Shown one piece after another: positions 379-63,259 of a stretch of 63,259 bases of DNA. Both the position numbers and the translations under genes were made by a program. The stretch covers positions 1-63,259 of the IMG/VR virus record IMGVR_UViG_3300025108_000002. One strand, 5' to 3'. Within the stretch, counting starts at the first letter, position 1; each line of letters starts with the position of its first letter. Source of the stretch: a virus. The notes under the pieces were generated by a model that saw only the letters and a list, made by a program, of their open reading frames with translations, had not been told where the DNA came from and made no database searches.

Positions 379-488
379 GGGCGTGAAATGGTTAGACTAC
401 AAAATAGGTGGGCGAATGCTGTAAAGATACCGCGAGGAGCGGTACCTAAATTGTAGTAACGCAGGTTCGATTCCTGCCACGTCCACTA
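379..488 (+). ncRNA. tmRNA-like compact RNA with G3-U70 acceptor stem
   Basis: The acceptor stem is 379-385 with 478-484 (seven pairs), including G381-U482 at the 3-70 position, which is the alanine identity pair. The discriminator is A485, followed by CTA rather than CCA. The T arm is 461-465/473-477 with loop TTCGATT. The D region (386-395) has no stem. Where an anticodon stem should be there is a perfect 7-bp helix (396-402/451-457). It leads to TAGGT/ACCTA (405-409/444-448) and an ACCGC/GCGGT hairpin (429-433/439-443). An acceptor, stemless D loop, long helix 2 and T arm is the plan of the tmRNA tRNA-like domain, but the normal ~300-nt mRNA and pseudoknot part is absent. A tRNA with an inserted segment is the alternative. 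Confidence 0.5.
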
Positions 489-4371: not shown

Positions 4372-4478
4372 TTAAAGATTTTAACGAATGGATGGCAAGT
4401 ATAGGTAATATATACTACGCTGATAACAAACTAATGTCACAGGCATTTGAAAAGCTAGAAGAATATGAAAAAATATAA
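4368..4478 (+). CDS. 36-residue hypothetical protein
   Basis: It starts in an ATGA overlap with the preceding stop and runs 14 bases into the sigma factor gene. The composition is acidic and aromatic, and the C-terminal half is probably helical. The coupled overlaps on both sides are the main evidence for expression. Confidence 0.45.
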   Translation: MIKDFNEWMASIGNIYYADNKLMSQAFEKLEEYEKI

Positions 4479-5226
4479 TATACAAAACTACATAAGATAC
4501 AAAAACGACGTAAAGACTTCTATAGCAAACATGGAAGGTTTAATGTGGGACGAATACAGTAGAGATCAACTCATTGTTAAGTTCATGCCTCTTGTAGAAA
4601 ACCTAGCGCGTAAGTTTTCAACTACACAGCAAGCTTCAGGTGTTTTAAGTATTAACGACTTGTTGCAAATAGGTAATGAAGGTTTAGTTAAAGCTGTAGA
4701 CAAGCTTGACTGGGAAATGCTAAATGAATCAGAAGACATAGAGAAAACATTAAAATCGTTTTTTAGTAAAAGAATTAAAGGTAACATTAGACGTAGAATT
4801 GATATGGCTCGTGGCGATATGCGTATACCAGAACATAAGCTAAATGAAATACGTAAAAACCCTAAAGATAAAAAAATGGTTGAATTGTTTTTCAACTCTG
4901 TATTCTTAAGTATTGACGCTCAAGTTACAAACGATGACGAAGAGAATATGATATATCAAATAGCAGATAAATCAGAACCTTACAACATACAAATACTTAA
5001 TGTTTATTTAAAAGGTTTAATGAAAAAACATTTAAACCATAATGAATACGAAGCGTTAAGATTAAGCTACGGTTTAGACTGTAATAAGCATTCTGCAAAA
5101 GAAATAGCTGACCATTTAAAAATAAACGGTGTAAGTGCTTATGTGCGTGTTTCAGAGCTAAAAAAGCAAGCTGTACAAAAACTAATAGACAACGTAGATC
5201 ACTCGCAAGTGCTTGATATAGTGTAA
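4465..5226 (+). CDS. Phage RNA polymerase sigma factor
   Basis: 253 residues. Sigma-70 region 2 spans about 34-125: LIVKFMPLVENLARKF, then DLLQIGNEGLVKAVDKLD (core-binding helix) and FFSKRIKGNIRRRID. MRIPEHKLNEIR resembles the conserved end of this module in RpoD. Region 4 is at about 190-242 (LNHNEYEALRLSYG and a helix-turn-helix with SAKEIADHLKI). It should direct host RNA polymerase to phage promoters, most likely those of the minus-strand virion arm, since no phage RNA polymerase is seen. It follows a helix-turn-helix gene with overlap. Confidence 0.85.
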   Translation: MKKYNIQNYIRYKNDVKTSIANMEGLMWDEYSRDQLIVKFMPLVENLARKFSTTQQASGVLSINDLLQIGNEGLVKAVDKLDWEMLNESEDIEKTLKSFFSKRIKGNIRRRIDMARGDMRIPEHKLNEIRKNPKDKKMVELFFNSVFLSIDAQVTNDDEENMIYQIADKSEPYNIQILNVYLKGLMKKHLNHNEYEALRLSYGLDCNKHSAKEIADHLKINGVSAYVRVSELKKQAVQKLIDNVDHSQVLDIV

Positions 5227-60765: not shown

Positions 60766-60806
60766 AGATATAATGGTTGATGTGAGTTCGATTCTCACCA
60801 TATCTA
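60766..60806 (+). ncRNA. Minimal tRNA-like element (acceptor plus T arm only)
   Basis: AGATAT (60766-60771) pairs with ATATCT (60800-60805), and a T arm lies at 60782-60786/60794-60798 with loop TTCGATT. Between them is only the D-loop-like ATGGTTGAT, with no anticodon arm. An extended hairpin (CTGTCC at 60707-60712 with GGGCAG at 60742-60747) precedes it. The D-loop-like part resembles that of the element at 379. The next two-box element begins at its 3' end. Confidence 0.4.
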
Positions 60807-60839
60807 CAAACAAAATAATTTTTAATACAGATAATATAA
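60803..60839 (+). promoter_or_regulatory. Two-box promoter-like element, copy 5
   Basis: ACAAACAAAATA at 60806 and TACAGATAAT at 60826, 20 bp apart. The ATG of the next gene is only five bases after the second box, so a transcript starting seven bases past it would be leaderless. Confidence 0.6.
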
Positions 60840-62750: not shown

Positions 62751-63259
62751 GCTAGACGAGTAGCTTAACTAGGTATGATTAAAGGCGAACGAAGATTAAT
62801 TAGAAGCATCATTGCATCACCTTCTATTCGGCTCGATGATTACACATAAGTGAATAGCTAGCGGGAACTAGGTCAGGTTAGAGACGCAAGACAGGCTTCG
62901 CGACTCGGGCTACCGACGGGTATGAGGTTCGAATCCTCACTAGTTACAAATAGTACAGTATCACGGGTTGCAGAGTAATTTACTGCATGCACGGTGGAAG
63001 TCCGATTGTTGAAGCGGTGAGGGATCGTTATGAACTCGTGGAAACAGAGATAACTGTATTTATAAGCAGTAGTAAGTATAAGTCAGGGTACATACCGGTA
63101 AATGACGTGCATCTTATTACTGCTTTATGGGCGTGAAATGGTTAGACTACAAAATAGGTGGGCGAATGCTGTAAAGATACCGCGAGGAGCGGTACCTAAA
63201 TTGTAGTAACGCAGGTTCGATTCCTGCCACGTCCACTAATTTTAAATATAAACTATGAA
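62751..63259. repeat. Right copy of 509-bp direct terminal repeat
   Basis: Identical to 1-509 and ending five bases into the ATGAA start of the gene at 505. It contains the second copy of the structured RNA block, including the tmRNA-like element at 63129-63238. Confidence 0.97.

Follow-up and report, generated by a model that had tools for sequence, protein, structure and literature searches.

A phage tRNA-like RNA of tmRNA descent with a constant alanine-type head and exchangeable structured inserts

A tmRNA head without a message part

The window analysed here is the full 63,259 nucleotides of the IMG/VR virus record IMGVR_UViG_3300025108_000002, and the element under study is a 110-nt tRNA-like RNA at positions 379-488. 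As judged by comparison with related phages, this RNA descends from tmRNA, which rescues stalled ribosomes, has lost the message part, and keeps a constant head of the alanine type at an orthologous position, within which paired inserts are exchanged. A constant head holding interchangeable inserts suggests that in nature the RNA serves to carry parts that can be swapped. The element consists of a shell and an insert, with the following features:

379-488, + strand: complete tmRNA-type tRNA-like RNA, 110 nt (Rfam model RF00023, 37.7 bits; own covariance model R1, 78.3 bits, the element being itself among the 32 sequences used to build R1)
63129-63238, + strand: identical copy of the element, within the right-hand terminal repeat (exact match)
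379-385, + strand: 5' strand of the acceptor stem, GGGCGTG, with G3 pairing to U70 (sequence, pair counts)
386-395, + strand: stemless D region AAATGGTTAG with a conserved GG (present in 112 of 112 elements)
396-402, + strand: 5' strand of the closing helix P2, ACTACAA (double-sided changes at 7 of 7 P2 pairs, permutation tests)
404-449, + strand: exchangeable insert module M7 with three helices (recurrence in other holders, covariation)
451-457, + strand: 3' strand of P2, TTGTAGT (pair counts in the alignment)
461-477, + strand: T arm GCAGG-TTCGATT-CCTGC (sequence, pair counts)
478-488, + strand: 3' strand of the acceptor stem, CACGTCC, discriminator A73 (485), then CTA (486-488) instead of CCA (sequence)

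The first-pass annotation, made from the letters of the window, had described a 7-bp acceptor stem with G3-U70, an A73-type base, a stemless D region, a 7-bp helix, nested stems and a T arm, and every one of these features is present on direct reading and folding. The acceptor strands (379-385 and 478-484) pair at all seven positions, G3-U70 included, and P2 is a perfect 7-bp helix (396-402 with 451-457) at the position of an anticodon stem. Inside it lie three nested stems (405-408/445-448, 411-413/418-420 and 428-433/439-444). The folding energy of the element is -39.6 kcal/mol versus -27.1 kcal/mol (sd 3.2) for shuffled sequences (z -3.9), none of 200 shuffles being as low. The same annotation had mentioned neither the second copy at 63129-63238 nor that the middle of the element is a variable, exchangeable cassette.

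RF00023, the tmRNA model, aligns to the element from end to end (model positions 1-374, interior skipped) with 37.7 bits and an E-value of 1.6e-13, a score below the cut-off of 47; the first-pass annotation had proposed such an Infernal check. At curated cut-offs Rfam makes no call for the element, and ARAGORN, also proposed there, calls neither a tRNA nor a tmRNA in it. Orthologues of the GGGGGTG...CACCTCC type in related phages, which are 81-82 nt long, reach 60.8-66.1 bits and thus exceed the cut-off; the shell is therefore the tRNA-like domain (TLD) of tmRNA without the message part. Alanine identity (G3-U70, A73) and a long P2 at the position of the anticodon stem are both found. No tag reading frame complete with a resume codon and a stop codon is conserved, the inserts of relatives being unrelated in sequence, and pseudoknots PK1-PK4 were not found in the window element, where the 46-nt insert holds three short helices and the Rfam model passes over the interior. 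On these comparative grounds, the element is a tmRNA TLD lacking tag frame and pseudoknots. Its anatomy also agrees with that of the RNA of mycobacteriophage DS6A, in the definition of PMC4131195 a phage RNA scarcely larger than the TLD.

Other classes fit less well. An ordinary or intron-bearing tRNA was rejected, as there is neither an anticodon loop nor a D stem and ARAGORN is negative. So was a permuted two-piece tmRNA (RF04321), which gives partial, weak matches of 13.7 and 22.4 bits, the acceptor strands of the element standing in normal order. The Rfam models of GOLLD and ROOL do not match the element. A host gene was likewise discarded: the exact first 18 bases occur three times in 84,980 bacterial and archaeal genomes, always within coding sequence.

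Conservation of the shell and of alanine identity

These 18 bases are found exactly in 24 viral contigs. All 24 run on into the same shell, which places the element far beyond chance, and the sequence between is almost entirely different. A search with the 3' half returned 82 distinct elements, and the shell types GGGAGTG...CACTTCC and GGGGGTG...CACCTCC raised the set to 112. Common to these related phages, which are uncultured and probably infect Flavobacteriia, are an acceptor stem with G3-U70 and A73, the stemless D loop and the T arm. G3-U70 occurs in 110 and A73 in 112 of the 112 elements, counts obtained with a pattern in which U70, A73 and the greater part of the stem were set beforehand; an open scan without any fixed acceptor bases recovered the same shells. 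Pair 4:69 is C-G in 87 elements, A-U in 15 and G-C in 10. In the alignment of 32 elements, 3:70 is G-U throughout (32/32) and 4:69 again varies among C-G, A-U and G-C. The shell is near-identical across phages whose ligases are about 60% identical. At this locus related phages thus carry a tmRNA-type shell instead of an ordinary tRNA, and its stems are kept by covariation, two points on which the first-pass annotation had staked its reading.

The closing helix and its inserts

Nearly every phage has a different structured insert in the slot at the same locus, with 38 insert families among the 112 elements. When one representative per insert family was taken, the run of closing pairs averaged 5.95 bp versus 3.90 bp (sd 0.19, maximum 4.66) in 5000 permutations in which 3' ends were dealt to other elements, and an additional permutation test agreed. 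In the alignment all 7 P2 pairs are changed on both sides, although the rows were selected for at least 5 pairs in that register, which makes the permutation test the fairer measure. The closing helix, as far as comparison of these elements goes, covaries strongly. The supposition of the first-pass annotation, an RNA that could be charged with alanine but had lost its mRNA part, agrees with the tmRNA-type shell, the retained G3-U70 and A73 and the missing tag frame, but is incomplete, because an exchangeable module fills the position of that part.

Antisense pairing to the phage's own array of structured RNAs, described below, was considered as a role for the insert and rejected, as the insert has no long complementary match there.

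Modules shared with other holder RNAs

The element does not stand alone. Four further structured RNAs precede it:

1-112, + strand: holder RNA A, not tRNA-like, at the same locus, with an insert at 24-93 (33 distinct inserts in holder A across relatives)
116-197, + strand: tRNA-like holder B, with a T arm at 173-189 and a hairpin at the position of a long variable arm (17 distinct inserts across relatives)
204-311, + strand: holder RNA C with module GAGGGATCGTTATGAACTC at 269-287 (module shared with tmRNA-type shells)
312-378, + strand: hairpin RNA D with arms 314-326 and 363-375 (hairpin structure)

Sixty-six of the 112 inserts match DNA outside tmRNA-type elements (E <1e-3), the matched targets being mostly other holder RNAs of the array and in a few cases tmRNA-type elements that had escaped masking; shuffled inserts gave 0/112 matches in each of five sets. 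The window insert, M7, also resides in holder A of L067, L145, L206 and L032 (L-numbers denote the compared loci of other phage records), in another context in L010 and in a second shell type in L184, and across these holders three of its pairs show double-sided changes. Exchange runs in both directions of comparison: the insert family of the window's holder A is housed by a tmRNA shell in L026, and GAGGGATCGTTATGAACTC of holder C lies inside tmRNA-type shells of L033, L143 and L168. Identical cores were found in different holders, and nested insertions in L168, L130 and L077. Judged by this recurrence, the inserts are modules exchanged among holder RNAs of the same array.

The array occupies 62751-63238 (equal to 1-488) between an open reading frame (ORF) of 62 amino acids and the next small gene. 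Its order and content vary among phages, with A, B, C, D and others present in relatives and modules both swapped and nested.

Minimal and other tRNA-like forms

One further tRNA-like form lies elsewhere in the window:

60766-60809, + strand: 44-nt minimal tRNA-like element with acceptor, D-loop-like 9-mer and T arm, no insert (family of 27 distinct forms)

The acceptor of these minimal elements covaries, with double-sided changes at 7/7 pairs. They have neither D stem nor anticodon arm and are located just upstream of small genes in L032, L033, L037, L172 and others. True tRNAs are found directly 3' of some tmRNA-type elements. In L022 a variant of the same plan with U73 stands alongside a normal copy. 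A freshwater relative (L212, MW202828) has two tRNA-like elements, at 532-630 and about 630-700, without a normal anticodon arm, and the first of these resembles a long-variable-arm tRNA whose anticodon arm is replaced.

Genome context and distribution

The genes of the window include terminase, portal, primase, ligase, nucleotide reductase and GroEL, as well as an Erf-like annealing protein. The large terminase is 61% identical to that of the uncultured podovirus MW202828 and about 44% identical to those of Flavobacterium phages (genus Elemovirus), followed by phages of Cellulophaga, Tenacibaculum and Maribacter. These affiliations point to a marine member of the Flavobacteriia as the probable host. 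Among 46 records found through the neighbouring DNA ligase and not through the RNA, 34 match R1 at E <1e-6, usually once per genome; in loci that contain both, the element is located about 2-3 kb upstream of the ligase. In 58 of 108 elements an ORF of at least 30 codons has its start codon 2-22 nt past A73, a gap too short for a separate promoter, and in those cases the RNA and the downstream gene must share a transcript. A promoter-like motif, TTACAAACAAAATA followed after about 10 nt by ACAGATAATATAA, is repeated at 695, 60169, 60368, 60804, 61427 and 62472 upstream of small genes, and the phage encodes its own sigma factor at 4465-5226.

The ends of the record are repeated:

1-509, no strand assigned: left terminal repeat of 509 bases, identical to 62751-63259, containing the entire RNA array (measured repeat)

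A terminal position was rejected as a general feature, because the place of the element within the contig varies among relatives. Since relatives break elsewhere, the repeat may reflect permuted packaging or an assembly feature of the record.

A separate group in Microbacterium phages

No isolated relative of the array was found in the phage collection searched, where one chance-looking match pointed to phages of Microbacterium. From this weak database match we reached an unannotated 92-nt element in Microbacterium phage Gack, which scores 43.8 bits with R1. A TLD-only RNA is present in 29 Microbacterium phage records (Dismasvirus, Armstrongvirus and Edenvirus) and in several adjoins tRNA genes:

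PP978884 39854-39945 (L214 539-630): TLD-only tmRNA-like RNA, in one of the 29 Microbacterium phage records

It is nearly always unannotated; in BAjuniper it is labelled tRNA-Pro(agg). Among 11 aligned elements G3-U70 is found in 11/11, and 13 of 27 pairs are changed on both sides. By this comparison, the Microbacterium phages are a second, unrelated and independent group with a TLD-only RNA. Their hosts are cultured.

A proposed scaffold for exchangeable modules and its rivals

Taken as a whole, the findings have a best explanation, to which we give a little better than an even chance: a tmRNA-derived, probably alanine-chargeable scaffold that displays interchangeable RNA modules, where charging, SmpB binding and module targets are what we infer from the comparisons. 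A phage lineage, probably infecting Flavobacteriia, would have turned the tmRNA TLD into a scaffold whose head stays nearly constant and whose P2 carries one of many structured modules traded with other holders. The RNA would be released from a longer transcript at its tRNA-like ends by RNase P and RNase Z and receive a CCA end. It may then be protected like a tRNA and chargeable with alanine by the host enzyme, and hence persistent, and might contact EF-Tu, SmpB and ribosomes. With less certainty, the insert could confer specificity by binding host factors, most likely in counter-defence or in taking over the host, since inserts that vary within an unchanging frame are what an arms race would be expected to produce. 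The more specific reading, that constant holders, one of them an alanine-charged tmRNA head, present folded modules acting on host proteins, is tentative. Equally tentatively, the logic of such a display might resemble that of variable binding domains held by a constant frame, with RNA as the only material.

Several observations weigh against the scaffold. Two of the 112 elements have A3-U70, and shells of the type AGGCGTG...CACGCCT or CACGTCT with U73 (L022, L165, L169) have lost the alanine features. CCA is encoded in only 1 of 112 elements and must thus be added; the genuine tRNAs of the same phages have the same style of 3' end, with CCA not encoded. When inserts from 20 loci were compared with Rfam at E up to 1, no family matched. 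Finally, the insert of the Microbacterium elements is conserved and not swapped.

This fixed insert on a shared plan would suit the strongest rival, in which titration of SmpB (or of AlaRS or EF-Tu) by the TLD alone blocks trans-translation during infection, the insert being no more than a plug for the mRNA part. The retention of a tmRNA-type head with alanine identity is also in line with such a rescue inhibitor, as is the TLD-only tmRNA of DS6A, since a passage in PMC4131195, citing Mao 2009, describes a similar TLD-only molecule as a strong inhibitor of tmRNA, perhaps through titration of SmpB. A plug, however, would not have to come from 38 families of structured modules, which occur in non-tRNA holders as well, and elements without G3-U70 and A73 persist, although inhibition reportedly is independent of charging. 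We regard inhibition by the TLD alone as unlikely, but as a serious contender.

The proximity of start codons to A73 in 58 of 108 elements, the minimal 44-nt shells immediately upstream of small genes and the true tRNAs that come straight after some elements could alternatively mean that the shells are punctuation, that is, cutting sites for RNase P and RNase Z between the RNAs and mRNAs of a long transcript, with the insert as tolerated baggage. Why one type of shell, unlike the minimal ones, conserves alanine identity, and why structured inserts are maintained and exchanged, would then lack an explanation, and we consider punctuation improbable.

Cores shared unchanged between holders, and insertions nested in one another, are what selfish or mobile RNA cassettes would leave behind if they spread among the hairpins of the array and used the tmRNA head as one landing site. 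Closing stems, however, are refitted to each holder, cores keep their covarying pairs, neither a coding gene nor a target-site signature was seen, and recombination through the phage's Erf-like annealing protein offers a simpler route, so that mobility of this kind appears quite improbable.

A reduced tmRNA that still works and tags proteins could be imagined from the Rfam similarity and from a 14-codon frame in the window (GCG AAT GCT...TAG). The first-pass annotation had treated this frame as possible chance, rightly so: the relatives with the same insert, L010 and L184, shift the frame in the apical loop, and other inserts are wholly different. Comparison already contradicts a tagging role, as the frame is unconserved even inside one insert family, pseudoknots are missing and inserts of relatives are unrelated in sequence, which leaves it very little probability. 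Least probable of all is a decayed tRNA or tmRNA pseudogene, which would account for the missing anticodon and the failure of ARAGORN but is already contradicted by a near-identical shell at about 60% ligase identity and by compensatory changes throughout.

Comparison with known systems

So far tmRNA has been regarded as a single molecule with a single task, whereas here its head is separated and reused by phages, in a manner that keeps alanine identity and replaces the message part with exchangeable structured RNA. If the modules of the proposed scaffold are functional, the phages would have a scaffold system for RNA that arose in nature and would hold a large stock of RNA folds still to be explored, among them perhaps counter-defence RNAs. 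The unannotated counterpart in cultured Microbacterium phages makes the role of phage TLD-only tmRNAs directly testable. No published description of module-swapping phage RNAs was found in the literature searched, subscription journals and preprints lying outside it, and module exchange in a large TLD-only family with a variable slot appears to be new.

With canonical tmRNA (ssrA, RF00023) the element shares the 7-bp acceptor, G3-U70, A73, the stemless D loop with GG, the T arm and a P2 replacing the anticodon stem. Unlike tmRNA, which is about 350 nt long, the elements measure 68-188 nt, have no tag frame or pseudoknots, bear a P2 capped by an exchangeable module and, in the window, end in CTA, not CCA. 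The TLD-only tmRNA of DS6A is the single published phage case (PMC4131195). It is likewise a phage RNA with little beyond the TLD, a likeness drawn from its published description, but swappable inserts such as those of the window family are not reported for it (PMC4131195). Complete phage-encoded tmRNAs, present in about 2% of phage genomes (PMC9004378), are also phage genes for tmRNA-derived RNAs and often lie among tRNAs, but in contrast to the window element they keep the mRNA-like part. GOLLD and ROOL (PMC12286853) are comparable as structured phage RNAs near tRNAs, and in GOLLD one region is conserved and another less so; both, however, are much larger and have no tmRNA head. A further parallel is an engineered tRNA scaffold, a laboratory construct in which a tRNA-shaped shell holds a foreign RNA at the position of the anticodon arm (PMC3753655), and of which the phage element would be a natural counterpart.
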